From Megalonaias nervosa (lineage: Eukaryota; Mollusca; Bivalvia; Unionida; Unionidae), in NCBI GenBank assembly GCA_016617855.1, contig JAECUM010004340.1, positions 1 through 64,000 on the forward strand: a stretch of DNA of 64,000 nucleotides, written 5' to 3'. The stretch's first letter is position 1. Each line of letters opens with the position of its first letter. Positions 4,600-52,700 of the stretch are shown here, piece after piece. The position numbers were made by a program, and so were the translations under genes. A model generated the notes under the pieces. That model saw only the letters and a program-made list of their open reading frames with translations. It had not been told where the DNA came from and ran no database searches.

Positions 4600-4820
4600 A
4601 ATACTGTATGTACTAGCTTATTAGTGGAGTTTAACTGCATACTGCACAGATCCAGATCTGCCGGCGCATTATGCTACAGCAGATCTGGGTCTGTGCAGTT
4701 TGCTATGGGTAATCAGTAGAACAACAGCATAGACCCTGATCTGCAGGTGCATTATGCTATGGTAGATCAGGATCTTTGTTATATGCTCTTTGCCTTGACA
4801 TATAAGCAAGTGCATACGGC
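4600..4820 (+). mobile_element. Palindromic MITE copy A
   Basis: Two successive hairpins are visible: CAGATCCAGATCTG...CAGATCTGGGTCTG and AGACCCTGATCTG...GTAGATCAGGATC. They are joined by the family spacer (GGGTAATCAGTAGAACA) and end near a decayed TTGACATATAAG terminus. Structure described in the finding on this family. Confidence 0.75.
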
Positions 4821-13977: not shown

Positions 13978-14196
13978 CACATACACTCCCTTATAAGTTA
14001 AGTCTAACTGCAAACAACATAGACCCTGATCTACCATTGCATGATGTGCCAGCAGATCAGGGTCTCCTATGTATGTTCTACTGATTACTTCTAACAAACT
14101 GCATAGACCCAGAACTGCCAGCACATAATGAAATGGCAGATCTGGATTTGTGCAGTTTGTAGTTGTACAAGACGTAAAAGGGGGGATATATGGTAT
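13978..14196. mobile_element. Palindromic MITE copy D (reverse orientation)
   Basis: TTATAAGTTAAGTCTAACTG, then hairpins AGACCCTGATCTAC...GCAGATCAGGGTCT and AGACCCAGAACTGCC...GGCAGATCTGGAT, spacer in reverse orientation (GTTCTACTGATTAC), and a decayed right end reaching GATATATGGTAT. Confidence 0.8.
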
Positions 14197-17859: not shown

Positions 17860-18077
17860 AACATGAGAGCTATACATGGCAGCCAGTATATTTGATGGAG
17901 GAATAACCTGGGAAGACATTAGGAAGAACCACAGACCACAGGAAACTACTGTCAAGCTTTCTTACATACCCAAGCTGGTCGAGCCAAGACTCAAACTTAC
18001 ATGAACAGAGGTGAGATATGTGAGTAATCTGTAAAGGCGAGCATCTAAGACCACTCAGTCTCCTGGGACCCTGATAA
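17860..18077 (-). mobile_element. tRNA-derived SINE copy (family 1, minus strand)
   Basis: Matches the inverse of the complete copy at 29543-29797 over almost its whole length (CTATACATGGCAGCC, AAGCTTTCTTACATACCCA, GAGCCAAGACTC, TAATCTGTAAAGGCGAGC, CCTGGGACCC). The 3' tail is truncated. Confidence 0.75.
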
Positions 18078-18368: not shown

Positions 18369-18470
18369 TATATCCATCGATATGTTTATAGAAGGATGGT
18401 TGAATTCTGGGCAAGTATCCTTCTAACAAATATTCCAAACAGCACAGGAATTCTTTTAGGAAAAGAAGAA

Positions 18471-18692
18471 TACCATCTTTACTCACTTATAAAATGAGTT
18501 CAAATGCAAACTACACAGACCCAGATCTGCCATCACATAATGCACCAGCAGATCTGGGTCTGTGCATTTTGTTAGGAGTAATCAGTAAAACAAACAACAC
18601 AGACCATGATCTGCAGGTGTATTTTGCTATGGCAGATCAGGATCTATGTTGTTTACAGTTTTACTTGACTTATAAGTGAGTACATACAGTAC
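18471..18692 (+). mobile_element. Palindromic MITE copy E
   Basis: TACTCACTTATAAAATGAG... left end, hairpins CAGACCCAGATCTGCC...GCAGATCTGGGTCTG and AGACCATGATCTGC...GCAGATCAGGATCT, spacer GTTAGGAGTAATCAGTA, and right end TTGACTTATAAGTGAGTACA. One of the best preserved copies. Confidence 0.87.
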
Positions 18693-18827: not shown

Positions 18828-18991
18828 ACCATATATACTCACTCATAAGTCAAACTGCAACAAACAAAGATCATGATTTACCATAGCAATATGCACCAGC
18901 TGATCAGGGTTTATGGTAATTTTTCTACTGATTACTCCTAACAAAATACACAGACCCAGATCTCTTGGCGCATTATGAGTATATATGGTAT
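18828..18991. mobile_element. Palindromic MITE copy F (internally deleted)
   Basis: Starts ACCATATATACTCACTCATA and ends GAGTATATATGGTATA, so both outermost tips are present. The second hairpin is cut after CCCAGATCTCTTGGCGCATTA. Confidence 0.8.
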
Positions 18992-25300: not shown

Positions 25301-28300
25301 GTAAGTCAGGTACAACTGCAAACGACACAGATACTGCTCTTCCATCTCATAATATACAGCAGATCAGGGTCTGTGTTCTTTGTTCTGCTATTAATCCCAT
25401 TTCCAAAGACCCAGATCTGCCAGCGCATTATGTAATGGCAGATCTAGTTCTAGTCAAGTATATATGGTATGTATTCTTGATGATTAGCCTCATACCATGC
25501 TTGGTTTAATCCATTTAATACTCGTACAGTTATTTAGTGGAAATGGATATAAATGGACATGACATTCATGCATGATGAACATGACCCCTTTACAGAATAT
25601 GATTGGCAATTAAAAGAAAAACATAAATGGAATATTGATTCCTGTCTTACCAAAGGTACCGACATATTTTTCACAATTCAATCCACTGTAGCCTTTAGTA
25701 CACTGACACAAGGGGAAACCACTGCTGTTTTTGTTGCACTGTCCATTTTGACTACAGTAACCTGCACAATTATCTGAAATAAAGAACACTTTTTGTTTTT
25801 ACTTCTGACATTTACAAAAGAAATCAAAATGCTGTGGGTCTCAGTATTTTCTAATGTTTTTGGCTGTTTTAATTTTTTAAGGGTCACTGCCAAGAGATGG
25901 CTTTTTCACTAGGACTGAGTAAGTCATTTGACAACAGTGCATCAAGTAACTGACATCAGAACTAGTGAAGTTGTACTGTATTTATTTTATATTTATAGTA
26001 AAACAAATTCTGAGAACTTAAACAACATGCCTTGAATGATGATGTTATCATAAGGTAATCATCTAAACTGAAGGAACTGATTGATTGGAATTTAATAACA
26101 CATCATTACATTCTAGGCTATTCAGCTCCATGATAAAGGTAAGATTTATAAGAACTGCTAAAATATAATTTTAAAAAGATTTTTAAAAAGAAATATAAGT
26201 ACAAGTTATAAAAGGCAGTGTAAACAAAGTATAAAATGCATACAGATGCATAACAGTAAAAATAAAAATATATATAATAAATTATATATAGAAAGTAACA
26301 TTTTAAAATTTTTAAAAAACAATTTCTTTTAAGGAGTTCAGATATTTCTGTACTTACATGCTATCAAATATCTATATCTACTATAGCAAATCCAAGATAT
26401 TTTTTACCAATGTGATATTGAATTCATGTTTTAAATTCCTTACTACCTCAGGTTATGTCCAGTTAGAACAGTGTGATATCCAATAGAATGTAATATTCAA
26501 TACCTCACTGCCTCAAGTTATGTCCAGTTAGAACAATGTGGTATCCAATACATGCTTTAAGTACCTCACTGCTTCAGGTTATGTCCAGTTAGAACAGTGT
26601 GTAGGTTATGTCCAGTTAGAACAGTGTGATATCCAATACAGTGTGATATCCAATATCTGACTGCCTTAAGTTATATCCAGTTAGATCAGTGTGATATCCA
26701 ATACATGCTGTAAGTACCTTTACTGCTTCAGGTTATGTCCAGTTAGAACAGTGTGATATCAAATTCAGTGTGATATCCAATACCTCACTGCCTCAAGTTA
26801 TGTCCAGTTAGAACAGTGTGATATCCAATATATGCTTAAAGTACCTCATTGCCTCAAGTTATGTCCAGTTAGTACAGTGTGATATCAAATACATGCTTTA
26901 AGTACCTTTACTACCTCAGGTTATGTCCAGTTAGGACAGTGTGATATCAAATTAAGTGTGATATCCAATACCTCCCTGCCTCAGGTTATGTCCAGTTAGT
27001 ACAGTGTGATGTCCGATACATGCTTTAAGTACCTTTACTGCCTCAAATTATGTCCAGTTAGTACAGTGTGATATCCAATACATGCTTTAAGTACCTCACT
27101 GCCTCAGGTTATGTCCAGTTAGTACAGTGTGATATCCAATACATGCTTTAAGTACCTTTACTGCCTCAGGTTATGTCCAGTTAGGACAGTGTGATATCAA
27201 ATTCAGTGTGATATCCAATACCTCACTGCCTCAGGTTATGTCCAGTTAGTACAGTTTGATATCCAATACATGCTTTAAGTACCTTTACTGCCTCAGGTTA
27301 TGTTCAGTTAGAACAATGCACACACACATGCTTACACAGAGGAATACTATAATTCAAGAAGAAGATTATTCAGTCTTCATTTTTGCAGAAAAATGGGAGA
27401 GCACTCTTCCAGACTTATTTGTTGCAGATAAATGAGGAAAGCATTTTTCCTGACTTATTTTGTCGATGAGAAATGGCACTGATTAAGACTTATTTTGGCG
27501 ATGAGAAATGGGAAAACGATGTTCCAGACTTATTTTGGCGATGAGAAATGGGAAAACGATGTTCCAGACTTACTTCTGTTCAGTACCTCAGAGAAACACT
27601 AAGACATCTAGGCTTTGACACCTTAGTGTATAATGGTCATACTTTGGGGCCAGGGATGCAACATCTGCTGTAGCAGCCAACTCTGAAGATAATTTAATCA
27701 AAATACTTGGTTGTTGGTCATCCAGCTCTCACCAAATATACATCTGCTCTTCCTAGGAAACAATATTGAGCAGTTCAACGTGCATGGTGGCTAAGGATAA
27801 TTCATGATGCTGAGGTCTGATGTCTTGGACTTATAATGTAGAACTCTTCATGTTGTCATATGGAATATAGTTTAATTGTTGTTTGTCATCAAGTATTTGA
27901 TTAGTTATCCATAGATATAATTTGTAGACTCTGGTTTTGATTGATCACATGAACAAAAATCAGGTCTTTTTTATTACTGTGCATTTTTTTACTCCTCAAC
28001 ATCAAGTGGCAAGACAAAATCCCAGACAATGAGGTCCTTGCCCAAGCAAGTTTGCCCAGTATTTACACCATCCTGATGCAGTCACAGATGCAATGGACAG
28101 GCCATGTAGCTTGAATGCCAGACCACTGGCTTCCAAGAAAACTCTTATGGCGAGCTTGAACAAGGAAAACTAACAGGACAGCCACAGCAGAACAACAGAG
28201 GCAGGCCAAGAAATCCCAAGCCAGTAACCCTATGACCTGCATTGCTGCCATCCCCTGTCCACAATGCCATGGAACATTCAGGGCACACATCAACCTCTTC

Positions 28301-30974
28301 AACCACCTGCAGACCCACATACCTATTGTTCCCACTATAACACTGGATGACTAAAGTGGTCCTCATCGACTTGATCGACAAACTCGCTCTTAATGATAAT
28401 GTGATTCCAGATTTAACAGTGTCAAGCTATGGAACCCATTACAAATTTTACATTTTTAAAAACAAAAACAAAATAATCAGTGTAATGTGCCATTTTCATC
28501 ACCTTAATGACTTATATAAAACCATTTTATTCAGCACTGGTTTTCATAAAGCTACCGTATTCTGCAATTGTCAGTTACTGTATTCGCTAAGAGATGTGTG
28601 TGTGTGGGGGGATTTTTAATGTAGTTGCTAAGAGGTAATAGGACACCTGAAACTTCCACTGGCACAAAGCCATTATGCCAGACCTGCATTTTAGCAATTC
28701 ATCATGCCTATCACACTGGCATATCTAAACATGCAGTCATTAATCCTGCCTTTACCATATCTATCACATTGGTATTTCTAAGTATGCAGTAATTAATCTT
28801 GCCTTTACCATGCCTATCACACTGGCCTTTCTAAGTATGCAGTAATTAATCCTGTCTTTACCATGCCCATCACATGTATTTTGAAGCATGCAATAATTAA
28901 TCCTGCCTTTACCATGCCTATCACGCTAGCATTTCTAAGTATGCAGTAATTAATCTTGCCTTTACCATGCCTATCATACAGGCATTTCTAAGTATGCAGT
29001 TATTAATCTGCCTTTACCATGTCTATCACACAGGCATTTACAAGTATGCAGTAATTAATCCTGTCTTTACCATGCATATCTCATTAGTATTTCTAGGCAT
29101 GAAGTAAATAATCTTGCTTTTACCATGCCTATTATACAGGCATTTCTAAGTATGCAGTAATTAATCCTGTCTTAACCATGCCTATCACATTGGTATTTCT
29201 AAGCATGCAGTAAATAATCTTGCCTTTACCATGCCTATCACACAGGCATTTCTAAGCATGCGATTAATCCTGCCTAAGATATGATACTGCATATTGTAAA
29301 TAAACAATTTCTAATTTAATCTGCCCATTTTGAGCGTAATATAGTAAATTTTTCTAAGCTAAAGCACAGTATTATAACAGATTCTAGGTAAAAAATTGTT
29401 ACCATGTCACTTTCTGTGGATTGCAAGGTGTTATATTTTGTCAAAGGTTCATTTATGCATCCATATGTACATACCATATATAACTGCTTATAAGTCATGT
29501 CCAACTGCAACTGCACAGACCCATAGCAATCATCGCATAATGAGGGGACCCCAAAGAGGGGGAGTGGTCTCAGGACCTCACCTTTACAGATCTCTCATTT
29601 CTCACTTCTGTCAACATGGGTTAGAGTCTTGGCTTGACTGACATGACTAATTTGAGAAAGTTTGCAAGTAACTTCCTGTGGGTCAGTGGCCCTTCCCAGG
29701 ATTTTTCCCAGGTTCTTCCTCTATCCAATATACTTAATGGCCATCATGTATAGTTATCTTGTGCTGAAATATGCCATTAAACCCCACAAAAATAAATGCA
29801 TAATGTGCCAGCAGATCTGGGTCTTTGCAGTTTGTCACAAATAATCAGTACTACAAACAACAAAGACCCTAATCTGCTGGTACATTATATTGTTTACAAT
29901 TGGACTCGAGAAGCAACTGTAATCCTTAAATACATCCTGCTACTATATGTGAAGCCACATCTGGAAAATAGTGTGACATTTTAAACTGACATGCAGATTG
30001 CTAGTAAACATTAAATGAGCCTCACAAGTGGTATTTAGTAGTTCCTTCTTTACCCATGGCTTTCTGCACCATGATTTCCTTGTTTATCATCAATTTACAT
30101 ACAAAAAAGTCTTCAGTGGCTAATTCAAACAGCATGAAAGGTCATGTTGGGTTATATTCTGAAAAAACATGCTTCTGTACTCCTCAGTGTGAACATCATT
30201 TGTGACAGAATGAAAATAACAACTGGAATGAATATTGACCAAACAGTACTTGTGGTGACCTATTCAGAACTAGATCAGAAATGAACACATGATGGATATC
30301 TTAAAACCAGGTGCCCATTTCCTTTAATGTCTATCATGAAATATAGACCCTTCAAATGACAACATAGAGATTCAAAGAAAATGGTATGTTAATATTCTGA
30401 AGGCTATCTTTATTTCTATCAATATATCTATCAATATATCTATCAACATATCTATCTGAAAGCTTGACAACTTGATTTCAATGAAGTAAAAGGACATATA
30501 CTGTATGCACTAGCATATAAATATTTTAACAATCTTTTCGATTGATATTTTTTGTACACACCTCTACTCCTTCCTCCTCTTTCACATACAACACATGTAT
30601 ATATTCACTGACAAGGTTTTGCATTGCATGTCAGCTTGGTATGTAATATGAACAGCAGTTACTGAAACCAGCTTGCAGTTCACTATAATGAGGATCAACT
30701 GTGGACCCTTTGATGAGAATTTAATGAACTGATTAAGTAAGCTCAATAAGGTATGGTCTATACTCACTTATAAGACAAGTCAAACTGCAAACAAGAAAGA
30801 TCCTGATCTGCCATAGCATAATGCACCTTAAGATCAGGGTTTATACTACTGAATACTCCTAACAAACTGCACAGACCCAGATCTGCTACTGCATAATGCA
30901 CCAGCCTGGCAGATCTGGGTCTGTGCAGTTTGTTAGGAATAATCAATAGAACAAACAGCATATACCGTAGTCTG

Positions 30975-31005
<31 letters not shown>

Positions 31006-34000
31006 GACTTTGTATAGTGCCTAATCTTTAGAAGCTCTAAGCACTTTACAGCATTAGACAACACATACAACATAAAAAAAAACCATATATAATGATATGA
31101 TTACAAAAAACAAACACCATGAAATTAGAAAACATAAAACATGCTGATAATATTTAAGGTAAGGAGACATTATTAGGTCTTTAAGTCTGTTCTAGCAGTC
31201 GAAATAGGTGAGTTTTAAGAGTGCTTTTGAATGAGATCACTTTGTCTTTGTGTCTAAGTTCAGTGGGCAATTCGTTCCACGTTGCTGGGCCCTGGTATGC
31301 AAAAGAACGTTGTCCATATGACTTCGTGTTCATAGTGGGAATAATGAGTATACGACTGTCAGAAGAGGAGTGTAAGTATCTTGCTGGTGTGTACACATAG
31401 GTGAGGTCGGATAGGTATGTTGGACTGGAGCCCATCAATGAAATGTAGCACAGAGAACAAATTTTGTGTTTGATTCTGGATCGAATGGATAGCCAGTGTA
31501 GGGTACAGAGCAGGGGAAGGTGTGCTCTGATCGTGGTACTCTAAGGATGCTCCGAGCAGTTGTGTTTTGAACTTTTTGAAGTTTCTGGAGTAGATATTGA
31601 GATGAACCAGTTACAATAGTCCAGTCTTGAAAGTACTAAGGAACACACAAGTGTTTTAGTGGCATCAACTGAAAGATATTTGCGAATGGAGCTGATGCAT
31701 CTCAGCTCAAGATATGCAGCCTTGCATATGTTTATGACATGTTGGTGCAATGTGAGAGTACAGTCGAGAGTAACACCTAGGTTTCATACTGACTGTGTAA
31801 ATTTAATGTTGGTGTTGCTGATATTTATTATTTGAGGTAAAGAATGTGAATGAGAGTTGCATTATGCTATGGCAGATCAGGATCTTTGTTGTTTTCACTT
31901 TGAGTTGACTTGTAAGAGAGTATATATAGTACCAAGTTTTATAAAAATTGGATGAGAAATATGTTATCTAAATCCAGAAAGGTAACAAGGTCAGCCAATC
32001 AAATGCAAGGTACCTCATTAATATACACTCATCTGACTTACTATGAAACCTATCAATGACAGATAATATAAGCTTAAAGTGGTGTAACTCTAACTGCAAT
32101 TCAGTCTCTTGAAAGATACAAGTGTGGTCAATCATATACAAGACTGCCTCCTTATTATATGTTGATCTTGCTCCTAATTAAACTCATCCAACATCTTGAT
32201 AATATGAGACTACTTAACAAGTTTGATCAAAATCTGATTAGAAATATAGTTGCTAGATTGTTGACAAGCTCAGTCCATCAGATGCAATGTCATAGTAAGT
32301 AATATACAGGAAATGTGCCCATAATTAGACCCTACCAAAATCATATAAAAATTACAGTCTACAGAGAGGCATAAATATCCACAATAAATGCAAGACCACC
32401 TCATAACTATATGCATAGGTCTTGGTTACACAATCATCCATATTGGCCTGTTTACAAGTTGTACTAAAATCAGATCATAGTTTCTCATATGGTTAGGGCT
32501 GTTCCATTAAAACAGACATGGGAATGGGGGAAAGCAGTTTTGAAATTGGGTAGCCACCCTAAGATGTGAATAAGGTTTTTCAGGACCCACTGACAGAATG
32601 TACTGAACAATAAAATCACCCACCGTTATAAATTTTTATATATATTATATTATATATATATATATTACAAGGGTCACAATATCAGGCGAAATGGGTGACT
32701 TAGTTGCCAAAAAAATGAAAACTTTGCCTATTTCTGTTAGGAAAGTGAAAACGACTTTGCCCTGTGACTTTTCAAATATATATTGAGTGACTGTCAATTT
32801 TAGATGCTTCCTTGCCGTAGCCAATTATTTCCAGTGTTGCAGATTGACCAATAACCCTTTCCCGAGTAAGTTATAGCAGAGATGTGTGATAGGGCCTATA
32901 TGTCTCTGGTTATAGCAACTATCACTGGCCAATTTCCGCAAGTTATCATTTGATGATAAAAACATACAAATTTGTGTTTCAGAACTTAAACAATAGTACC
33001 TAAATTGCAATTTGTGTTTTAAGAACAGAATCAGTGACCTGAAGATTTTAACTGCTGCATGTACATTATTTTCTTCTCAAAATTTGGTTGAAACTGTAAG
33101 TGAACTTGTCAGAAGGAAATAATGGCAGACATCTCTGTGTCTGGGAAATACTAGTCTGTTAGACTGCTGTTGTAAATATTTGGATGGCTAAGAAAAATAT
33201 TAAACTCATAGAAAGCAAAGTCTAAATATTACGTTATTCAAGATTTAGCATAAAAATGTAATTATGTAGGTCCCAACATATGGGACAATGGTAGGTTGTG
33301 GAATTAGAGAAGAGCTGTCGGGTCAAAATAGTTTTCACTCATTTTTGTGAAAATAAGGAAAAAAAGTAGCGCAGCAAATACTATTTTTAACCAAAGCTGT
33401 ACATTATTACTACACATATGTAGACAAATAATAAAACCATAAACTTGCAATCCAATCAATGGACTGTTGTAACAAAGCTAGAATGCGAGAGGTTACGTTA
33501 AGAAAGTCCCTCTTTCTAAAAACAGATGCACTCACATGTTGGCGGTTAGAAAGAAGATTTTAGTTCATCCATATACCAACTTTAATGCTTCAATGCATTA
33601 TTTATGAATAGTTACAGTAATGATTTATTGGCAACAAAGACATTGAGACTAACAAAATGGTATGAAGCACGTGTGCATTGGCTCTAATGTACATGTTACA
33701 TGTCAGCAGTAAAGATTATTTATAAATGATTCAATGAAAATGGGGATTGTTTTATAACATTACAGCTGAGGGCTGTTCCATTAAAACATACATGGGACCC
33801 AGGGACAGTACTTTTAACAACATACTGTATATGCCAGGGTGGTTTGGATTCAAAATTGCTTCTGTCCCAGGTTGTTTATTCAATAAAATCACTTCTAGAG
33901 GTGGTTGAAGTAACTGGTTTGGTAGGTCTGTCTAAAATTGTGAGCTAAATGTAATCAAAAACTTCCACTTTAGATATCCAGTCATTAAATTCGTATTTTA

Positions 34001-37000
34001 TGTTATACACGCTGTATTTGTTCCAGTCAAGAGTAGGCCTGTTTCTTTCGAACAGACAACAGACTATAAAATGTTGTCATTGGTCAGCTAAAAATAGGTT
34101 GGGGAAAGTCTACTACGTGACCTGCACTTTGTAGTTTTACTAATCACAAACAAAGTGAAAATCTGTCTTTATTTTCTTAATCATAAGGAAAACTAGCAAA
34201 TTTTTTAATTAATCTTTTATAAAATTAAAGTATAAATTCTGCGGCCACATTAATTTTAGTCTTGTTTGTATCATTCAGATCTGATACGCGCTGCAAAAAG
34301 AACCGAATGTAGCCAGATTGTGACGGTAATGGCAGTGAAACATGTTTTCAATCGGGGAAGAAGCTGGTATTTGGTTGAGAAAGCAAAGCCTAGAGAAATA
34401 ATTGACAACCTTAGAGGTAGGTTCTGGTTTTTTTTCACCAAGCTAATAAAAAAGTGTTAAGAGACTAGTGAAATTCCATTTATTCAATCATTACAAACGT
34501 TGTTGTCATAGACTCATTTTTGTCTGTCAAAAGCCATTGTAACACGTACTTGTCTTGATCCAATTAAGTCAAGATGACTGACATGCACATAATCGGCAAG
34601 AGGCAGGTTTCATGTTAGTTACCTTGTGTTAATTGATTGAACGGGCAGAAATGAATGCTTATGTGTAATGGAGTCTCTGTGGGAAATTTTAACTCCAACA
34701 TGTAATCAATCCAAGTCCTGTTCCAATTGACAATTCCGATGTTTTGGAATACAGCTTCACAAAATTTGATTATTTAATGGTTATCTGAAAAAATCGGATT
34801 GATGGCACTTTAGAGTTGGAATGGAAGAAGTGCAGAGCATAATAACATTGGTATTACTGTTGTATGTTTGTATGGAGCATCTTATGTGACACTTTAAATG
34901 AACTAGTTTCATGGATTCAGTTGCATTTCGTTTAAGAAAGAAGTCTCAGAACTATTGTAATAAATAATGGCAATATATGGAAAGGAAGTTAAAGTTATAG
35001 AACAAAAATGAGAAAATTATCTTGAAACCAATTAGTTGGTGAGTAATAGATCATTATTCACCCATTTTCCAGTTATTTTCTGCATAGAAATGATACCATC
35101 CATACCTAATTAAAATGTACTTTTGGTAATCTAAGTCAAAATGTGTTGAGGGGTTTTCATTGATACTTCAGATTCTTAATAGGTAATAGTTCTTATTTTC
35201 ATTGGTGGCGGTCATAACCATGCAAGTATTTATTAACAATGTGGTCAGTTGTGGCTTGTATACAAGTAGATGATTATGACAACTTTCTGCTTAGTATCCA
35301 GTCATCTAATTTTTTCAACAAAATTGAAGCACAATGATACCATAGTTGCAAGTTGAATTAAACATTGTTGACTTTATGTTTAGATTTTGCTATGTGCATG
35401 TCAAGTTGCTAAACATTTGGACATTACGCCAGTTTTTGGTATATTTATTAACTCCAAAATTTACACAGCATATAACATAAGCGTTGCTTTAGACTGCATG
35501 CCTATTTTTTGTTCACTTGAATAATTTTCATAATGAATGCACTAGTGGTCGTTTTTTGGTTCACACGTGTCAGTTTGTTAATCTTATGTTGGCTTTGGAT
35601 TAAACTTTCTTTTGTTGAGGACTGTCCATTTTGTATGTACACATTGAGGTGGGGAGTGAAGTTTGAATATGTGTGGATGGGGATGAGACAGAGTAGTACA
35701 TACACACCTAATAACAAAAACTTTATTAAAGTTACAATACAACCTATTTGCCATAGTCAACAACAAACAATTGATAGTATTTGCACACTTTCCAATTTGT
35801 TTGTAGCCCCATACCAATTTTAAAAATGAAAAGCATCAAGAAAAGAAGTTGTAAATAAGTGCAGTACATCATTTTCAATTGGCCAATGAGAGGGCAGTCA
35901 ACCATTCAGTGTACTGCAGTTGCATATTAAGTGGGTCTGATCATGGCCATAAAAGTTGTGTGAAAAGGGAGAGAAGTGTCTTCCCTTGTTGTTTTTTTTA
36001 TAGTACATATATAACAGATAAGTTAATTGCAAGCAGCTAGATTAACCCCTGTGCCCTTTTATGGTTTCAAGGATGGATGATGCATGGCAGTCAGAACTGT
36101 GTCATATGCATCCAGTATTTGCAATGTACAGTTTTAATAATTTTAGAAATAATGGACAAATAAAAATGTAACTCCAAAATGTATGGAATTAGTGAGATTA
36201 TCAAACACAATGAATGGTCCAATCTGTTGCTTGAAAACAGGGACTTGATCATGCAAATAAGTAAACCGTGTTACTAAAGAAACTCCCGTTTGATTCGAAA
36301 TGCACACAAATTGACAGTATTTGAAGGGGGTACTAAGCAAATGTATACATTCACACCGGGGAGGGGTTAGAAAAAGAACACCCTGCAAATGAGAGTTTCA
36401 AATGTACTGAATGGACAACCCTTTATCCTCATAAGGAATAATAACTCTTATTAGGCCAGCAGTGATGATGAGACAAAATAGTTTTAATCATTGGGGTTGT
36501 TTTTAATTAATGTTAAGATTAAAATGGCTGCACGAAATTTTAATTATTTTTTTACAAAATTATTATACAGTTTATTTCATTTTAGATAGTACAAAATTTT
36601 ACTCAGAAACTGAATAGGAATTTTGCACCATTTTTAACCATATAAATTTGATAATGGGTAATCCCTTGCAGTATTTATTTAATCACTGGACATGTCCTCG
36701 CACCAAGCTGTTATATCTCTAGCACACACGCACACTTTACACACACACCTCCAATGAATGCCAACTGTGGCAAAGCACTTTATTACAATGCCCTGGTACT
36801 AAATCACTAAATAACCAAATAGTTTCAGCACTCAGCAGTAAAATAGAAGAAATGGTTTTATCTTAGATTCCTAGAAATTATTATTGATCAGTAGAGTGTG
36901 CTTCCCTTTGAAAGACTTTTTTTTGAAGTATAAAATATAGCTGCTCCTTCTATCATAGCATAGATGCCATTTTATTGGGTTTATTTCAGACAGAAATACT

Positions 37001-40000
37001 AGAAAGTGTCAGTATTGTTGTATCAAGCAACATTGTGGTGGACCAATCAGTGACTTTGCTACAAACCAACTGCTATTCTTGTTGACAAATAAGATACAAA
37101 AGCTGAACTTTAGGTTACTGAGGAAGAAACTGCCATCAATGATGCAAGCGACGCTCTTAAAAAAGGCCACCAAATGGAGTTCCGTACTTGATGCAGAATG
37201 GAGTGATCCAGAAAGTAGCCAACAGGTACAAAGTCAAACAGCAGTTGGTTTATTTAGGTGATGTTACTAAATTGTACAAAATATCAAAAATTTTCTTTTG
37301 AAGGATTTCCTGTTAAAAATTTTACAATAAAAACTGGTATGTGTATGTATCTCAACAAAAGTCTGTATGGTATTACTCAGATTGCACTATCAATCCAATT
37401 GGTGAGGGGATTCATGTTTATAATACAAAGGTGTTGACAGAGTTTCTTTCAACAGCAGGTAGTTTTAAAAGCCATTCAGCTTGTACATTGAAATGTTATG
37501 TCACATGTAGATAAATTACAATGAAGAGTGTGTCATTTGTCATATATTTCAAGATCTTGGGGGGGGGTCACATTTTGGTATCACAACATGAAACATAGTT
37601 ACAACACTAGTAACCATTACAGAACACTGACTGATTATGTTCAGGATTTAAGTATGTGTGTCTTAGGGGTTATCACATATAGTTCAAATTTTTAATAGTG
37701 CTTATCAGTTCTTTTCTTATTTTACAGACATCTACCTCTGTGAGCCCAAGGCATTATAAGATGTATGAAAGGGATTTCCTGAAAAATTTGCCAGTTTTAA
37801 AAAGATCTTACTTTCAATTTAGGAATGATGAATCCCTTAAAATTGTCAAGATAAAAAATGAAAAAAAGAAAAAAGGTTTATTGGTTCTATTGTTATTTCT
37901 GTTATCTTTGTTTCAGCAGTTTAAATTACCAGAGTACATGTTCATAGATGAAATTATGCCATTTATCGATGTTTATGGAACTTCAGATTGAGCATTTGTC
38001 ATCGTTGTACATATTAATGTCAAACATGTAACTACCAACATGTCAATTATCCAGAGCATTCAGTTTTCAAAATCAAATTTGCTGCCACGAGCCTGTTGCT
38101 ATGATCTAGGTACATGTACTTGTATTTGTGATCTGTAAGATGGCAAATGTGGATTTAGATACAAGGGTTAGGGTCAACACTGCTGGTGTTAGCTTTGTTT
38201 CAGATGGAGTTGTCATGAACAACATCTTTTGTTCAAAGTTTGTTGGTTAACTTTACTGCGTCTCAAATTGCAAGTGGTCATTCATATTCTTGACAAACTT
38301 GAATTCATTAAGTGAAGTTTGGACAATTTATTGTCTTTATCCTGTTAATGATTGGAACACAACATTTTAACAATGATTTTCATTTTGGTAATATATTTTG
38401 AAATAAAGATGTTAAGTTAAATGCTGTTTTGAAGTATTATTGAGACCACTTCCCAGCTATAAATAATAAGGCATATAGAACCATGCATAATTTAGTAGAA
38501 TAGATCAGTATATGGTGACCTTTTTCATCTCCTACAAACAGGAATACAGAGTGGTTGTAGAATAGCTTTTAAGGCACTGGAGTGACTGTCCATGCTAATA
38601 GCATTTCAGATGTGCTAAATGTTATGGAAAAAGACAAGAGTAAAGTAGAATGTAGACACTGTAGCAATCCTGTATGCAATGTCATGGTTTTGCACCTTGG
38701 CATGTTAACTCTTTACCATCTGTAAGTACTTACTGCCTGCCTACTAAGCCTGATAAGCAACCTGCCTTCTAGCTGCTGTTGGTAGGCTGAACCCCTGAGC
38801 ATCATAATGGCTGCCTGAGTGAGAGCTTCTTGAGTTAGTGCACATGCTATCTACAATTTCTATATCAATCTTGTCCCATGCAAACTATGCAATTTAATAA
38901 AAATGAATATTTTAAACACTTAGCAAAGTTTTGTGCCACTCATTCCACCAACAAGTACATATAATCCTCAGGAATCTATGTTTATATTCACATATTCATA
39001 ATAAAAAATATACCTCAAGATATCTGCTGTGTTTATAATGTATATCAGACTACTTTTCTCACCACTATTTTGCACAACTGGAATATTTCTTTGAGAGAAA
39101 ACTATAAAAAGAAATCTATCTCCCTTGCATTTTCATCTAAATTAAATGCTGGCCCTGAATCTGCTGTAAAGTTGTCCACATGTAACAGTCCCACATGTCC
39201 TGACCAGAAAAGATCATCACACGTTTCATCCTCAGATTCAGATAAATCTGAAATGTCAGGTGTCGAAACAGGACTTACACTAATGTCCGATACTTCGTCT
39301 TTAATCGGATCATGAAAGGCAATGTCATCAATTTCAAATCCTTCAAAACTTTTGTTGGAATTGTCGTCGGAATATATGAATGTTGCCATTTTGTTTCACT
39401 TTGACAACTGACCTCGTTTTCAAAAGAAATTCCTGCTTTTATGCTGTAAAACTACTAATAGAACACTTTCATCATTTTATCTAAGGATTATTATCATTGG
39501 CTAAATATTGCTAAAAAGACCGGATGTTTGTGATTTCATCCAATGCAAGCTTTAATATGAAACATATATATGTGTCTCGTGGGTTTCCCAAACCATGGCT
39601 GGAAACGCATGTATGAGACGAGCCAGCCGGGACAGAAAGAATATTATTAGCAGCTTGTATATGCATCTCTGGGGTTACAAGGCTATTTTTAGCATCACAT
39701 ATATGCGTTAGCAGAAGGTAAAGAGTTAAATACTCTTTACATAGCCCTAACAACTTTTGTAAGCACCAGTCATCATTCAAATGTGCCAGTTTTTGACTCT
39801 CAGCCAGATATGCACATACTTAACAAAGCCTAATGTTGCAACCAAATTTCCATTTAACATGCTGACCAGAAAGGTAAACTCGGTATGACAACCAGATATT
39901 GAAACACTTTGGCTATATAATCTGGCAATGGACCCAGCCCATGTACACCATGACTAATAAAAACATGATGACTCGATTGGAGCTGGTCTGAAAAAGATTG

Positions 40001-40253
40001 TCCTACAGAAATGCACATTAAATTTAAAACTATAATCATGAATACAATGAATACCAAAGTAATATAAGTGCAATTTATAAACTTTAATTAGTTACATATA
40101 TATACACACCAGGGTTTTCATCATTTTCTGGCATAAAGGTCCAAACAACACATGATAATTTGATAAAACAAGCTGTAATGACCTTATTACAATATTGGCT
40201 AAAAATATTTTCTTTGTTAGAAGGTTCAAGTTTAATTTTCATGGCCAAATTCC

Positions 40254-40334
<81 letters not shown>

Positions 40335-42920
40335 CAAAAGGCTTTGCTATAATTTTCTTTTTGTTACCAGGTGATAAAAATATGATAATTTGAGCTTATT
40401 TTCTCTGATGGACCACACAAACTCAAAACCAATTAAACACGGTAACAAAGGAAAATTACAGCAAAGCATTTGGAATACATAACAATGAGGAATTTGGCCA
40501 TGAAAATTAAATTTGAACTTTCTAACAAAAAAAAACATTTTAGCCAAGACTGTAATAAGGTCTTTACAATTCACATATCTCAACAAAATAAGTTATTTTA
40601 TCAAATTATCCTGTGCTGTTTGGACCCTTGTGCCAAAAATGATGAAAACCATGGCATATATATACATACATCTGTTATCAAGTTTTAAAAATTGCACTTA
40701 TTTTTCTTTGGTAAACATTGTGTTGAAGATCAGTTCTAAATCTAATGTGCATTTCTGTTGGACTATTTCCAGCAGACCAGCTCCAATTGTCATCATGTTG
40801 TTGCTGTTGTAGGGTTTAACGCCATTTTTCAGCACAAGATAGGCTATACATGGTGGCCAGTATAAATAGTGGAGGAAGAACCCAGAAAAACCACAGAAAG
40901 AACCAACAACCCACAAGAAGCTACTGGCAAGCTTTCTCACATACCCACACTGGCCAAACCTGATGTCATCATGTTTATGTTGTTACAGTATGCAAGGGCT
41001 GGGCTCATTGCCAGACTATATATATCCAAAGTGTTCTAATATAAAATACGAACCAAAATCTGGCTGTCCGACAGAATTAACATTTCTGGTCATCATGTTA
41101 ATTGGAAATTTTACTGCAACATTACGATTCTGTTAAGTATGAGCATTTCTGGCTGAGAGTCAAAAACTTGCACAATTGAGTGACGACTGGTGCTTATAAA
41201 AGTTGTTAGAGCTGCAGAGAAAGAGTATTTAACATGCCTAGGTGTATATTGTGAAACCATGACATGCATACAGAATTGCTACAATTTTTACATTATACTT
41301 TATATCTTCTCTTTCTTCATTACATTTAGCACATCTGAAATGCTATCAGCATGGACGGTCTCTCCTCTGCCTTAAATGCTATTCTACGACCACTCAATAA
41401 TCCTGTTTGTAGAAGATGAAAAATGTGATAGACAAGGTCGCCATACACTGATCTACATTATATGAAATATTTCTACAAAAATTATGCATGGTTCTGTATG
41501 TCTTGGTACTTATAGTTTGGAATGGTCTACATAATACTTCAAAACAGCATTCAATTTAATGTATTTATTTAAAAATATAATACCAGAATGATTTCTTACA
41601 TCATTGTTAAAATGTTGTATTCCAATCTTTAACAAGATAAAGACAATAAATTGCCCAAACTTCACTAAGAAATTCAGGTTTGTCAAGAATATGCAAGACT
41701 ATGTGTAATTTGACACCCAGCAGTTAACCAACAAACTTTGAACTCGTATTTTGTTCATGACTACACCATTTGAAAAGAAGCTAACACAAGCAGTGTTGAC
41801 CCTTGTATCTACATCCATATTGTCATCTTACAGATCACAAATACAATGACATGCTCCTAGATCATAGCAACAGGCTCATGGCAGCAAATGTGATTTTAAA
41901 AACTGAATGTTCAGGATAATTTACATGTTGGGACTTCAGTTACATGTATGACATTAACATGTACATCAATAAATGGCATCTATAAATGGCAAACTTTCAA
42001 CTCTGAACATGCGCTCTGGTAATTTAAACTGCTAAAACAAAATTAACAGAAATAACAATAGAAACAATAAACTTTCTTTTCTTTCAACATTTACATCTTG
42101 ACAATTTTAAGGGATTTATCATTTTTAAATTCAAAGTAAGATCTTTTTGAAACTGGCCAATTTTCGGAAATCCCTTTCATATATCTTAATGCCTTGGGCT
42201 CACAGAGGTAGATACCTGTACAATAAGAAAATAACTGATAAGCTCTATTAACAATTGGAACTATATGAATTAATCCCTAAGACACACATAGTTAAATTCT
42301 GAACATAATTAATCAGTCAGTACTATAATGATTACCAATGTTGTAACTATGTTTCATTTTGTGATATCAAAATGTGACCCCACCTTTGTATTATAAACAT
42401 GAATCGTCTCACCAACTGGATTGGTAGTGCAATCAGAGTAACTCTGTCAACACCTTTGTATTATAAACATGAATTAAACCTTTAATAGCCTATAAATACT
42501 ACTATGGCACTGAAATATCCGGGATATAATTTGCGCTTACATAAATTTACAAAAAATAACAGATGTCGTTATGGCTCATCGATTTCTAGGTCAATAAAAA
42601 TATTTTCAAGCATCCGCAACAAGTTGAAATAAACTAGTTGAAACATGATAAATTTAAAGGTTTAATTCCTGTAGAAACAGCCATGTAAAGTTTTGCAAAC
42701 ACAATGGTTTTTGTGTTTTATTTGTTTGTCTTGTCTATGTTTTGTATTTGCCTTTGAAAAAGACTTATTAAGAGTCGAAAGCGCTCAGGCAAGTTAGATA
42801 CTAGTTTTGCACTGTTCGTTGTCAGTTTATTGCATTTATCTTAATCAATCCCTGACACACACAATCCCTTGCTGGATCCAGTGCACTTGAAAGGACTGTT
42901 ATTTGCATATGATTTGTATT

Positions 42921-42998
<78 letters not shown>

Positions 42999-43189
42999 GA
43001 AACATAATATATTTGGAGGTTTAATTCCTGTAGAAACAGCCATGTAAAGTTTTGCAAACACAACGGTTTTTGTGTTTTACTTGTTTGTCTTGTCTATGTT
43101 TTGTATATGCCTTTGAAAAAGACACATTAAGAGTCGAAAGTGCTCAGGCTAGTTAGATACTAGTTTTGCACTGTTTGTTGTCAGTTTAT

Positions 43190-43230
<41 letters not shown>

Positions 43231-46200
43231 GTGTGTGTGTGTGTGTATGTGTACCAGAGGTATAACAGCTTGGTGTGAGGTCATGTCCAGTGATTAAATA
43301 AATACTGCAAGGGGTTACCCATTATCAAATTTCTATAATTAAAAATGGGTCAAAATTCTTATTCGGTTTCTGACAATAACATTTTGTACTATATAAAATA
43401 AAATAAACTGTATAATAATTTTATGAAAAAAAAATAAAAAAATTCATGCTGCCATTCCAGTCTTTATATTAGAAAAAAACAACCAAACAGACTAAAAACT
43501 ATTTTGTCTCATCATCGCTGGCCCAATAGGAGTTATTATTCCTATTACTACTGCACTAATTTATTCTTTCTTTGATGCTTTCATTTTTAAAATTAGTAAA
43601 CAGGTACAAACAAATTGAAAGACATGCAAATACTATAGGCTGTTTGTTGTTGGCTATGGCTAATAGGGTTTATTGCAGCTTTAATAAAGTTTTTGCCACT
43701 ACACACAAAATGGACAGTCCGTAACAGACAATAACATCAAGGCCACTGCTCCGGTGGCCTAGTGGTTAGAGCATCCACCTCAGATGTGGAAGGTTGCAGG
43801 TTTGAACCCTGGCTGAGTCATACTAAAGACTTATAAAAATGGTTCTAACAGCTGCCTCGTTAGGCGCTCATTAAGAGGTTAGTGTTAGGACTGGTCGGCC
43901 TGGTGTTGGACTTGGGGGGGGGACATAATGTTACATGTCTGCGGCATGATGCCCCAGTGCTGGTCATCACTATAAACTGCCATGCTGTAGACATCGTAGT
44001 GATATTATTGAAAAATTGTTAAAGCTATGTTAAAAATCCAAATCACACACACTCTCTCCCCCAACAAAACAAAGTTTAATAGAAAGCCACCATAAGATTC
44101 ATGCTGAAACTAACACATGTGAACTCAAAAAGACCCCTAGTGCATTCATTATGTAACTTATTCATGTGAATAAAAAAAACAGGCATGAAATGCAAAGTAG
44201 TGATTATGTTATATGATATGTATATTTTGGAGATGATGAACTTACCAAAACATTGATGTACTGTCCAAAAGTTTAGCAACTTACATAAAGTCAGCAATGT
44301 TTAATTCAACCTACTACTATGGTATCATTGTATTTAAATTTTGTGGAGAAAATGAGATGACTGGATACTAAGCAGAAGGTTCTAAAAATCATCTACTTGT
44401 ATACAAGCCACAACTGACCATGTTGTTACTAAATACCTATTAAGAATCTGAAGCATCAATGAAAAATGCCCAACACATTTTGACTCAAGATCACCCAAAG
44501 TTACTTTTAATTAGGTATGCGTAATATCATTTCTATGCAGAAATAATTGGAAGATTGGGTGAACAATGATTTATTACTCACCAACTTAATGGTTTCAAGA
44601 TAATTTTCTTAATTTTGTTTTATAAATTTAACTTCCTTTCCATATATTGCTATTTATTACAATAGTTCCAAGATTTCATTTAAACTATCACAGTAGTTAA
44701 CCAAAATTAATGCAACTGAATCCAGCTAGTTAATTTAAAGTGTCACATATGTTACTTCATACAAACATACAGTTGTAATGCCAATGTTATTATGCTCTGC
44801 ACTGCTTCCATTCCAACTTCAAAGCATCTCAATCAGATTTTTCCTCTGATAATCATTTAACAGGCAAATTTTGTGAAGCTGCATTCCAAAACATTGGAAT
44901 TATCTATTGGAACTGGGCTTGGAATGATTGCATGTTGGAGTTAAAATCTGCAATGGATATTCCATTACAGCATTCGTTTCTGTCAGAAAAAAAAAGGAAA
45001 ACAAAAAAAGAAAACTGGTAAACACCCCTTCAACCAATTAACACAAGGTAACTAATGCAAAATATGCCCCCCTCGCCAATTCTGTGCATGTCAGTTATCT
45101 TGAGTTAATTGGATGAGGAGAAGTACGTGTTGTTATAACGGTTTTTGATTGACAGAAATGAGTGGCTATGACAACAACATTTGTAATGATTGAATAAATG
45201 GAATATCACTATTTTTTACCACTTTTTGATTAGCTTGCTGAAAAAATAACAGAACTTACCTCTAAGGTGGTCAATTAATTCTCTAGTCTGTGCTTTCTCA
45301 ACCAAATACCAACTTCTTTCAGGGTCGAAAACATGTCTCTTCACCACTACTGTCACAATCTGGCTACATTCAGTTCTTTTCGTATTGCGCATTGTATCGG
45401 ATCCAAATGATGCAAACCAAGTCTCACAAGACGAAAATTAATGTGGCCGCAGAATTTATACTTTCATTTTGTAAGGAGATTTATTCAGAAATCTGCCAGT
45501 TTTCCTTATGGTTAAGAAAATAAAATAAGGGCATAGATTTTCATTTTTGTTTATGATTAGTAAAACTACAAATGCAGTTTCACAAGTTAGGGTTTCCCCG
45601 ACCTATTTATAGCTGATCAATGGGAACATTTTATAGTCTATGTCCAATCCAAGTAATTGAAATGGAAATACAGCTTGCATAACCAAACAGAACTGATGAC
45701 AGGAGATTGTTGATTAAAGTGGAAGTTTTTATTACATTTAGCTTGCACTTTTAGACAGATCTCCAGAGTCAGTTATTTCAACCACTTACAGAAGCGATTT
45801 TATTGAATAAACAACTAGGGATAGAAACTATTTTGAAACCAAACTACCTTAGCATATATGTTTTTAAAAGTGTCGTCCCCTCTCCTATGTATTTTTTAAT
45901 GGAGCAGCCCTTAGAAGCTCAGCCAATCATATGCAAGATTACCTCATTAATATAAACAGGTCATGGGAAAAACCAAACATTATATATCTACCTTAATGAT
46001 ACCAGCCAAAATCAGATCAGAACAACGAATTCAGGGACGTAGTAAACTCTGTCAATCAGGTATGAGATCACCTCATTAATATGCATGGATCATGCTCATC
46101 AATACCTAAATACACATATACTGAATGTGCAAGACTCTTTAGAAACAATTTTTTACTGTCCTGATAAATAATTAACATAACAATGACCAATTTTTTATTT

Positions 46201-49200
46201 CATATCTGGTTATTACTATTGTAAAGGTTTTGCATATCTTTTTGTGCAGAAAATGATTAAGAAAAATGTTACCATTTTTGTGCTGATTATGGCAAGATTA
46301 TGACATGCAAGTCAGTATTGAACATAAACATATGCAATATTTTTAATGAAAATGAAAATACGTGTTATGGGTTGTTGATCATACTTATAAACATGCAATT
46401 TAAACAATGTTGTGGAAACCAAAAGCAAGTTCTATTGATACTATCATCAACCGTTATACACATTCAAGTTCTATTAATGCTATTATCAACTGCTATGCAC
46501 ATTCAAGTTCTATTATGCTATCATCGACTGTTATGCACATTCAAGTTCTATTGATGCTATCATCAACTGTTATACACATTCAAGTTCTACATTGACTGTT
46601 ATACACATTCCAGTTCTACTGATGTTATCATCAACTGTTATATACATTAAAGTTCTACTGATGCTATCATCAACTGTTATACACATTCAAGTTCTACACT
46701 GATTGTTATACACATTCAAGTTCTACTGATGCCATCATCATGTGTTATGCACATTCAAGTTCTATTGACAATATCATCGACTTATGCAAACTGTGACAGT
46801 TTCTCCACTAAAATTACAAATTCACATGTGCATATCAGGCTGTTTACAAAAAGTTACTGGGATGTTTCTGTAGGCATTGCATTTTGGTGGTAATTAAACA
46901 GTTATACCTTGTTGATCCAGTACATGAAACTGCATTGCAGGGCATATACAAATTAAGATTCCTGTTTGTATTATACAGCATTCTTATCCACATTTTGGTT
47001 TGATTTGGTATTTTATGACCCAGCCAAACAAGTAGGATATTTGGTGCTGAGGCAGTTGGATTAAAGTGCTTTGCCCAAGGACACACCATGGTAATTGACC
47101 TAAGCTGATCTGATGGTAGGATTCAAAGCTGCACTCTTTCAGTTGCAAGTCTGGCATCCTAACCAATGAGCCACTGCAGTTCCTGTCTCCATTTATTGAC
47201 TCTTTAGACATAAGGGGGGTGGGGGCACATTAGGTTTATTCTACATCCAGAGCCAGCAAGAAAATGATATTATTGAGTCAATAAAATTAAATCATGCCAA
47301 AAAATGTTGCCATTTACAGTGTCCTGAATGACTATGTGATAGTACAAATTCATACAGGTCACATCTAACTAAAGTCAATAAAATTTTCATAAAAAAATGC
47401 AAGGACATTATTATTATTATTAAAACTTGAAAATTTCTGACTGAACAACAATTCAAAACCTTGTTAGTATTTAAATTTTACAATTTATGACAGAACTCAA
47501 ACACTTTAAATTAATTATTTCTGAAGGTAGACATGTAATAAAGGCTCTGAGCTGCTTGAGTCTGGAATGTAAAAATATGAGAACTATCAGCCATAGCAAG
47601 CAACCACAACTGGATCTGAACCAAGGTACTAAATATCCTAAGCAAATGCTTTACCCTCTCCACCTTCCCTATCTCAGCAAATTTACCTTTGCAGTAAGTC
47701 CCATTTCCTGTGAAACCCAGCTTACATTCACAATTATACGAGTCCTCTAAATTTGTACATTCTGCTTCAGTGTCACAGTCATCAATCCCAAGCAAGCACT
47801 CATCCACAGAGCCATTGATGCATGTCTCCTTGGAGATGGCACCAGATGAGGGAGTTGTCTGCCCTTTGCCACATGGGAGACATCCAGTCTGATCTGCCAG
47901 GGGTTGGTAGGTTCCTTGGAGGCATGGCAGACAGGTGTTGTTGTTATTTCTGTATTGCCCTGCTGGACACAAGACTGAAATAAGAAATGTCAAGAGTAAT
48001 CTAGAAATGAAACATAACCCCCGAAGTCTCCCAATTATGTAAACAATCCTAATGAAAGTACCCCATAGTCCAGCTAGAAATGGCACATCCAACCCCCAAG
48101 TCCCGCTTATGTAAAGACTCTTACTGACAGTCACACCACCACCAAGTCTCACACTTATGTAAAGACTCCTACTGGAAGTACTGAAGAGTCCAGCTAGAGA
48201 TGACACATCCCCCCCAACCCAGCACCAGTCCTCTGCTTGTGTAAAGATTCCTATTAAAAGTACCCATGGTCCAGCTAGATATAACATATTCCCCCCACTC
48301 AGCTGTGTAAAGATTCGTACACACAGTACACCATGGTCCAGCTAGATATAACATATTCCCCCCACTCAGCTGTGTAAAGATTCGTACACACAGTACACCA
48401 TGGTCCAGCTAGATATAACATATTCCCCCCCACTCAGCTGTGTAAATACTCGTACACACAGTACACCATGGTCCAGCTAGATATAACATATTCCCCCCAC
48501 TCAGCTGTGTAAAGACTCGTACACACAGTACACCATGGTCCAGCTAGATATAACATATTCCCCCCCACTCAGCTGTGTAAAGACTCGTACACACAGTACA
48601 CCATGGTCCAGCTAGATACAACATATCCACCCCACTCGGTTGTGTAAATACTCCTACATACAGCACAATATGGTCCAGCTAGATGTGACATATCCCCTCA
48701 CTCGGTTGTGTAAAGACTTCTACACATAGTATACCATGGTCCAGCTAGAAATTACATAACCCCCCTGAAAAAGTGAAAAAGTGGGAAGTGGGTACTTGGA
48801 AGTGGAACAAGAAAAAAAGATAAACCAGCAGATCTCATAGAGATTTAAAATGAACTCCTGACAGAAGTAAAGAAAACTCAAAACATCAAAACTCTGGAGA
48901 ATGGTCTCCAGAGGGAGAATCAAATCTCATAAAAGGAGAACCCTAAAAAGATTCATTAAACCCGAATCACGCCACAGAAAAGTGCTATCTTAAGTTACTT
49001 GAAAAAGAAAAAAATTTCAGTGTATCAATTTTGGAGATATTGAAATGATTTTGGAGTTTTGTCTAAAAACTGAAAATGTGGATAATGGATGGATGGACGG
49101 AAGGACAGAAAGACAGACAAAAACATCTTTTTTTTTTTTTAATATCAACTGCAAAAAGGCACAGTTGGACCACAAATTTAATAAGTGTACAAAGTTACAT

Positions 49201-49747: not shown

Positions 49748-52700
49748 CAACTGATCGATCGATAGACAGACAGAAGATAGCAACAACACTAACCTAAGGA
49801 GCATGATTCAAGAGAGATAGTCCCATCACTTTTTGTTGTGAACCCATAAGGGCATGACTGGCACTGTTCTAGATCCATTTTGTCCTTGTATGTCCCCTTT
49901 GGACACGGGTGACATCCCCCTAGTGGGTTCATTTCATAACCTTTACTACAATAATCTACAAAAGACAGAATGGGTACAGTCAACACCTGCTACATTTTCT
50001 TGAATGAAATATTCAGGTGCCAAAAGAAAATGTACATGAATAAACACTGAATGGAAAATCTCACCTTTAAAAGAAACATTCAGCTTCTGACTCTGACTGC
50101 AATTTCACAGAACAAATAATACATATTTAGTTTATATGTCATTCTTCACCATGACGTTATATCTTCATGGGATTTTACTTTTACCAGGATTATGTCCACT
50201 GACATTACTGCATGTCCTCGCTTGTAAGTCGAATCCAACTGCAAACTGCATAGACTCAGATCTGCCATTGCATAATGCAGTTTCAGTCAGGGTCTATGCA
50301 GTTTGTTAGGATTAATCAGTAGAATAAAAACATCATAGATTCTGATCTCCAGGCATGATCAGGGTCTATGTTGCTTGCTGTTGGACTTGACTTATAAGGA
50401 AGTAAAGATAGTATGTTAACATATTATTGAAAGAAAAATTTTAAAATGCAGAAAATATGTACAAGATTTTAAAAATTACGATATCATTATATATGAAGTA
50501 CATGCAGATTTATATTTCTGACTAGTTTTTATACAAGCTGGTTCTACAAGGGCACTAACTCTTCAAACTTAAAGACATTATCTTTACAATTTAAAAAAAA
50601 ATTGTTATTAGCACAAAATATATGGAAAACTCTTGATCTCTAGTTTTCAGCCTGAGCAATCACAAATATGTTACTTTTGGAAGTTCATTTCTGACTGGCT
50701 GAAAGCAGAAAGTCAATCTCCAGGCTTGATCAGGTGGCAGTACATTATACAGAAAATCAATCTCCAGGCTTGATCAGGTGGCAATACATTATACCGCAGA
50801 TCAGTGTCTGTCCTTGCTACAGCTGGATGCATTTTATGCATTTGATCAGGGAAAAATAAACAGAATGCCACTTAGACTGAATCTGCTTCTAATGGATTTC
50901 TTTGGACAGAGGCAATGTGGGAAGATGCACACAGATAAAGTCTAGGTTATGTAAAGTTTGTTGTTTAACTTAATTATCCTTGGAGAATATCCAACTACAA
51001 ACTGAAAGATTGCAAATTCATGAAGTGAATTACATTCCAACTTGAAAAATTGTCGAAGTTTGACAAGAAAAAATCCTTGCGTGTGTACACCACAACTACA
51101 TTTTATAATAGAACAAGGTCCCATAATTGAGGCCACTTTCTTCTTATATATAGATCTGCCCTTGCTGGTGCAGTTTTGCTTTTCTGCAGTTTTCTATCTG
51201 CAAGGTCTTTCCAACCTCATCCTGGTATAGTTCTCAAACTACTCACATGACCTATTCACAACCCATGACCCTTCTTAATACTGTAAATTGCACAATTTTA
51301 GTTTGCATAACATTTTAGCAAATTTGGTGAGGATACTAAAATTTGTGAAAATATTTGTAGCCAAAGAAAATTTGATAAAGTCCTGGGAATCAGTTGCTTG
51401 TGAAAATTGCTAAGATTCTGAATATATGCAAAATTTCAAATACACTAAAGTATTTGCAATATCTGACTTTTGCTTCAATAAACAGTACCCTGCCATTAAT
51501 ATTTCACATCTTGACTGATGCAACATAAATGAGAGCAAACTATTGCCAATTTTTATAGGATAAAGAGCGACTGAAACATTTGTGCACTTACCTTATTTTG
51601 TTGCATATCATTTTACTCTTTATAACTTATTCTTCTGGGTATGGACCAATGTAAATTTCCTAAAAAGACTGGAGAAATTGTGTTCCAAACTGAGTACACC
51701 TTCTGCACTAAATACTGGGTTCTTATGCTGTATTATTTCTTTTCCAGTCAGACTTTTATAAATCTCCATATGTTGTCAATAAGTTTAAGGATGGGAGATT
51801 AGAAGGCCATGAAAGACAAATAATTTGATTTACTGTTTTCCATTGTAATGTTTCTGATGACTGGTATATAGATGCATTATCATCTGAAATAATCATGGGC
51901 CATTTGAAACGAATTCTCCCTCTATAGGCGACAAATATGAATCCAACATTTCAATATAATAAATTCATCGATGGTAACAGTCCTACTGTGACAAATGCAC
52001 CTCCAAAACACTGAAATCACTCAGCATTACAACTGATGTAAGGTCCAAGGGATTTAGGTTTAAAGTTTTCATCAGCTTTTCTCCAGAAATAAATTCACCT
52101 ATTTTTAACCAACACCACTTGAATTTCATCTGAAAATATAATTTTATTCACATGATCTCTGACTGTCCAAAACAGTGGTCTCTAATACATACCACATTGG
52201 ATTTTTTTTTATTTCTCAATGAATTTGTCAGTTTCTTTCTGACAATTCTCTGATGAAATTATTGTAAACTTAATCTTCTTTGAATTGTTTTTTGGACAGA
52301 GGTTTTGGAATAGATGAATTAAATTTGTTGCACAAATTCCAAGAGATTGTTTACAATGACTCCGAATAAGACAAAACAATAAGTAATCTCCCTGCTAACT
52401 TGTTAATCTGTGACATTCTTGTCTAGCTTTGTTTTCCACAGAACCCCATGGATTAAAATATTTCAGAAATTGTGAAATTTTCTATCCACAAAAGCCTAAC
52501 ATTTAACTTCTTTCATTTTTAGAATATTCTTCTTCTTTTAGCTTTAAAGACTGTTATTTCTTGTATGTGTCATTTCCCTTGTCTTCCATGGCATTGTTGT
52601 TGTGTCAGTCAATACTGTTCTATAAATAGATCCACATGCTCTATTTTGCAACAGTAACAAGGTGAAGGACAGGAATGTTGACTGGTTAAAATAACCTTGG

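Follow-up and report, generated by a model that had tools for sequence, protein, structure and literature searches.

In a 64,000-nucleotide stretch of the genome of the unionid bivalve Megalonaias nervosa (GenBank assembly GCA_016617855.1, contig JAECUM010004340.1, positions 1 to 64,000; the whole stretch is called the window here), the DNA from 32496 to 45910 consists mostly of two long inverted arms. It carries three transposon-like ends, is bracketed by TTA within a host repeat that keeps its spacing, and has taken up later insertions of its own. Of the readings considered, that of a DNA transposon of foldback type has the best support from these features. It is one of two that an earlier sequence-only reading had proposed, and it is favored because the arm homology ends at transposon-like termini and the host repeat resumes in step beyond the TTA pair. 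In its full form we give an even chance to the account that a decayed, non-autonomous, PHIS-like foldback transposon was inverted before insertion and jumped as a composite with an extra outer end. The parts concerned, with the left arm as arm 1 and the right as arm 2, are these:

31996-32424, plus strand: host repeat left of the insertion, four degenerate units of ~130 bp
32493-32495: TTA on the left side, presumably duplicated from a 3-bp target, read directly
32496-32541, plus strand: outer left terminus (third end), 83% identity to 33769-33815 over 47 bp
32542-33769: 1.23 kb separating the outer left terminus from the inner one, without a partner in arm 2
33767-33769: TGA adjoining the inner left terminus, a possible older target copy, from the terminus scan
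33770-40368, plus strand: left foldback arm, 6.6 kb including later insertions, by BLAST and global alignment
40369-40440: spacer (loop) between the arms, 72 bases
40441-45910, minus strand: right foldback arm, 5.5 kb including later insertions, by BLAST and global alignment
45865-45910, minus strand: right terminus, by terminus pattern match and terminus scan
45911-45913: TTA on the right side, the presumed counterpart of 32493-32495, read directly
45924-46095, plus strand: host repeat right of the insertion, two more units
Element ends: terminus sequence GGGCTGTTCCATTAAAA

Self-comparison of the whole window set 33766-40368 against 45914-40441 as a series of matches in inverted order, far beyond chance, with 40368 paired to 40441. 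This bears out the two arms of about 6.6 and 5.5 kb and the 72-base spacer described from the sequence alone. BLAST blocks between the arms include 1966 columns at 75.5% identity and 1209 columns at 80.6%, gap columns being treated as differences. Global alignment gave 78.9% identity over the 4617 columns with a base in both arms; once 698 columns were left out (35613-35714 and 36736-37376), where the arms are unrelated or shifted by insertions and homology is not credible, the remaining 3919 columns gave 84.5% identity, with 347 transitions and 259 transversions (Kimura two-parameter distance 0.175). This divergence dates the element only if the arms were identical at insertion. On each outer side a GGGCTG terminus lies no more than 4 bases from the point where the homology breaks off. 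Contrary to what had been claimed, the homology does not run the whole length of the arms, since two facing stretches are unrelated:

36749-37372: arm-1 stretch without kinship to the facing arm-2 stretch 42475-43230, by global alignment
42475-43230: arm-2 stretch without kinship to arm 1, containing long runs of AT and a 205-bp sequence present twice (94%)

The 205-bp copies (42635-42839 and 42994-43198) are direct and flank a long AT run, a part lacking in arm 1. Within the arm-1 stretch, 36819-36882 has a weak inverted match to 53376-53446 outside the element (73% over 71 columns, E 1.6e-4).

Each arm also carries private segments:

35867-36428: segment in arm 1 only, 562 bp, by global alignment, nature not settled
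38705-39729: later arm-1 insertion, piggyBac-like by its TTAA, read as TTAA, 1017 bp (38709-39725) and TTAA, with ends CTCTTTACC...GGTAAAGAG
40790-40964: short interspersed element (SINE)-like insertion in arm 2 only, set between TGTCATCATGTT repeats; related sequences lie at 17869-17978 and 29650-29789
43726-44058, plus strand: SINE-like segment in arm 2 only, with a tRNA-Leu-like head at 43747-43821

The insert at 38709-39725 has 14-base ends that match at 13 positions, and at the aligned place arm 2 has a single TTAA, an empty site. Its minus-strand open reading frame (ORF) at 39105-39395, which we take to be piggyBac-like, gave no match in the Pfam scan. The tRNA-Leu-like head scored 35.6 bits against the Rfam tRNA model and was also found by ARAGORN.

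The pattern GGGCTGTTCCATTAAAANANACATRGGA, at up to 3 mismatches, occurs at three sites in the window, 32496 (plus), 33770 (plus) and 45910 (minus), and at none in 100 shuffles. A scan of the window with the 20-base terminus at up to 5 mismatches returned these three ends (0-2 mismatches) and one weak site, 44954, which lies inside arm 2 and has 5 mismatches in 20. The outer and inner left ends are equal at 38 of their first 46 bases; the right terminus, compared ungapped, matches the outer left end at 32 of 46 and the inner left end at 31 of 46. The arm pairing joins 33770 with 45910, and 32496 stands 1.27 kb beyond the left arm, so that the earlier placing of the arm's start at 32496 has to be given up: the arm ends at 33770, and 32496 is a third terminus. 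Between the two left termini, 32542-33769 has no credible match to either arm among the matches listed, AT repeats aside. Read inward from outside, the flanks are C-TGA at the inner left, C-TAA at the right and G-TTA at the outer left terminus. The GGGCTG...CAGCCC ends and the outer TTA pair, both read directly, are thus as first described, except that the inner left terminus has a TGA flank.

Beyond the outer ends the flanks read GTTA on the left and TTAG on the right, and with the two flanks joined at one TTA the host units follow one another at spacings of 133, 146, 107, 124 (spanning the join) and 129. Scored with a 42-base consensus typed from these same flanks, the six units reach 13 to 30, and the best of 100 joined-flank shuffles reaches 13; unit 32275 is to be discounted because its score equals that best shuffle. 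Neither the element nor the remainder of the window yielded a unit scoring at least 17. Host spacing is kept across the join, and 32496-45910 therefore arrived without evident loss of host DNA, although with spacings ranging over 107-146 a gain or loss of some tens of bases would stay invisible. The target site duplication consists of the TTA pair set within this kept spacing, and is only 3 bp long. Outer ends and a TTA pair of this kind would be left by cut-and-paste transposition into a 3-bp target. On this pattern 32496-45910 would have come either as one unit or as nested units with one surviving TTA pair.

The ends and the 3-bp target suggest a PHIS-like element (PIF/Harbinger or NuwaII). 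In the available portion of a survey of these families, PIF/Harbinger duplicates TWA, NuwaII most likely duplicates TNA, preferring C before and G after, ISL2EU targets AT and NuwaI targets CWG; PHIS ends usually begin with A or G, or GG (PMC4482050). As far as that portion goes, the TTA target of our element fits TWA/TNA, its ends start with GGG, and the flanks of the inner left (C-TGA) and right (C-TAA) termini fit the NuwaII preference. The terminus pattern had no matches in viral, bacterial and archaeal contig collections, where a miss carries little weight. A literature search for the terminus listed one paper, on Oncopeltus.

Foldback organization itself can be set beside three known elements, each taken from the available part of its description. 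Tetris of Drosophila virilis has arms of up to 1,735 bp, an 8-10 bp target and ends common to DAIBAM (PMC4079207); Galileo of D. mojavensis has arms of up to about 1.26 kb and a 7 bp target, with some copies consisting of two terminal repeats (PMC3573991); and Tm1 of root-knot nematodes is a foldback element with a 9 bp target (PMC3169594). As in these partial accounts, the element is mostly two long inverted arms round a middle part, with no transposase found in the copy, and as in Tetris its ends are common to another sequence; it differs from all three in its TTA target, against 8-10, 7 and 9 bp. Its arms are several times longer than those described for Tetris, Galileo and the PIF/Harbinger families, to which this comparison is limited. 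The literature compared also cites the Drosophila foldback elements and, from a sea urchin, an element whose terminal inverted repeats are long.

Which superfamily the element belongs to, in what order the events took place, that a copy was made in inverted orientation and that the outer terminus took part in a single jump are all inferred. The source would have been an extinct non-autonomous element moved by a transposase encoded elsewhere. Before landing, one end and ~5 kb of adjoining sequence would have been copied inverted, giving two arms around the 72-base loop, and the terminus 1.27 kb outside the left arm would have acted as the left end. Extra end and foldback may then have jumped as a single composite into a TTA of the ~130-bp host repeat, probably in an intron. 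Decay would have followed, as the arms drifted and a piggyBac-like element and two SINE-like units entered one arm or the other. Inverted copying most simply precedes insertion, because the termini mark the limit of homology and the palindrome takes in none of the host flanks.

Several points weigh against this account. The element holds 67 stop-to-stop ORFs of at least 50 amino acids, and the 25 scanned with Pfam (including 21 of the 29 of at least 65 amino acids) gave no match above the curated cut-off, no transposase and no Myb/SANT ORF. Within the 64-kb window no second copy of the arms appears among the matches listed. A 3-bp TTA match is by itself weak, and the argument from host spacing is weakened by a consensus built from the same flanks and by one unit in six doing no better than the best shuffle. 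The arms, at 5.5-6.6 kb, exceed the inverted repeats surveyed, which span 5-1042 bp in PIF/Harbinger and 13-46 bp in NuwaII in the available portion of that survey (PMC4482050); we therefore file the element only as PHIS-like, length being a description of the known families and not a strict criterion. Kolobok has RR...YY ends and a usual target of TTAA, and KolobokP solo repeats have 3-5 bp targets, according to the accessible part of their description (PMC9587614). Ends of that kind and targets of 3-5 bp fit the element too, and its superfamily is therefore unsure. KolobokP, as described there, is likewise composite, with more than two termini and RR...YY ends, and its 3-5 bp targets would allow TTA; its long terminal repeats are direct, however, whereas those of our element are inverted and the direct repetition of its ends covers only ~47 bp. 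The usual Kolobok TTAA, on the same partial account, differs from the GTTA and TTAG flanks found here. Finally, three ends need not stem from a composite jump; nested insertions with a deletion offer another route.

In that other route, an element with its left end at 32496 entered at TTA, the foldback, beginning at 33770, nested in it at TGA, and recombination between right termini deleted the remainder of the outer element but spared its TTA flank. We consider this possible but rather less than probable. It gives the inner terminus a 3-bp flank of its own, TGA with C before it, fitting the C-TNA-G of NuwaII in the available account (PMC4482050). The three ends have ~46 bp in common, and the two right termini would share orientation. 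It also explains why the outer element lacks its right half and why the host spacing is kept. It requires one more deletion, however, and the right terminus, which is nearly as close to the inner as to the outer left end, gives no decision.

Less likely, and in our view doubtful, is an inversion made in place, in which an ordinary element occupying 32496-45910 was broken or excised and its right half was then duplicated in inverted orientation during repair, from the terminus onward. This would likewise yield the inner terminus at 33770 and a single TTA pair, and no result separates it from copying before insertion, but the copied tract would have had to stop at or near a terminus. Head-to-head fusion of two 6-kb elements was the other option of the sequence-only reading, and a terminus does stand on the outer side of each arm. 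No terminus within 5 mismatches of 20 was found near the center in the window scan, where the only site besides the three ends is the weak one at 44954. Fusion of complete elements is not borne out, and fusion in any form, including truncated elements or a more decayed central end, seems to us improbable. An assembly or fold-back read artefact is scarcely credible, as the sequence-only reading had argued, because 15.5% of 3919 columns differ between the arms and each arm has later insertions of its own, one with an empty site opposite, and nothing was found in its favor; the case against a false join of two distant copies is less clear, though the kept host spacing argues against it.

Hairpin formation, which had been anticipated for such a structure, is predicted strongly for its center. 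Folded as minus-strand RNA, the central 511 bases reach -214.6 kcal/mol, whereas 100 shuffles average -91.4 (sd 5.75; z -21.4) and none of them folds as well; the predicted fold includes a long self-pairing AT run. The longest perfect stem across the arms is 34 bp, and three stems reach 30 bp. Ongoing conversion between the arms is not supported, as independent differences would be expected to give a mean longest stem of 40.7 bp. Arm identity is also independent of distance (Spearman -0.13, p 0.44, 39 blocks; 0.832, 0.860 and 0.844 in successive thirds). Coding constraint on the arms since they parted was rejected as well: a three-base pattern in their differences, sought in 27 windows of 300 bp, reached a chi-square of at most 6.0 (2 degrees of freedom), and 8 of the 70 short insertions or deletions between them are multiples of three.

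Coding stretches of epidermal growth factor (EGF) type lie on either side of the insertion:

25673-25768, minus strand: EGF-like coding stretch, below the Pfam cut-off
about 47691-47957, minus strand: coding stretch with Ephrin_rec_like and EGF_3, above the Pfam cut-off

Together they suggest one minus-strand gene of animal type running across the insertion, which makes the intronic position proposed earlier plausible. A protein search with the EGF exon gave two candidates, neither with E <=0.001. Because the EGF-type stretches on both sides share the minus strand, one transcript could carry both arms.

Elsewhere in the window, minus-strand remnants resembling long interspersed elements lie at 8166-8777 and 10084-10908 (RVT_1, E 2.8e-13; Exo_endo_phos, E 2.4e-6). 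A dispersed family of ~200 bp occurs in both orientations at 71-80% identity (4600-4817, 13985-14168, 18469-18687, 18832-18977, 30761-30932 and 50212-50403) and has no match to the foldback among the matches listed. Minisatellite arrays surround the insertion at 22471-22693, 23447-23804, 24275-24661, 26408-27315, 28703-29275, 46426-46782, 48238-48765 and 57840-58050.

As a single copy, the element is of interest mainly as a fossil: it has three ends, its host flanks come together again at one TTA, and its later insertions can be assigned to one arm or the other. We would propose only tentatively that a PIF/Harbinger-type transposase moved a composite with ~5-kb arms and a captured outer terminus, and that such elements form a giant foldback class of their own with further copies in the genome. 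If such copies exist, palindromes of more than 10 kb lie within reach of a transposase whose target is 3 bp, and it can capture outside DNA by means of a spare end; that would inform ideas about the growth of inverted repeats and about the ways in which hairpin-forming DNA spreads.

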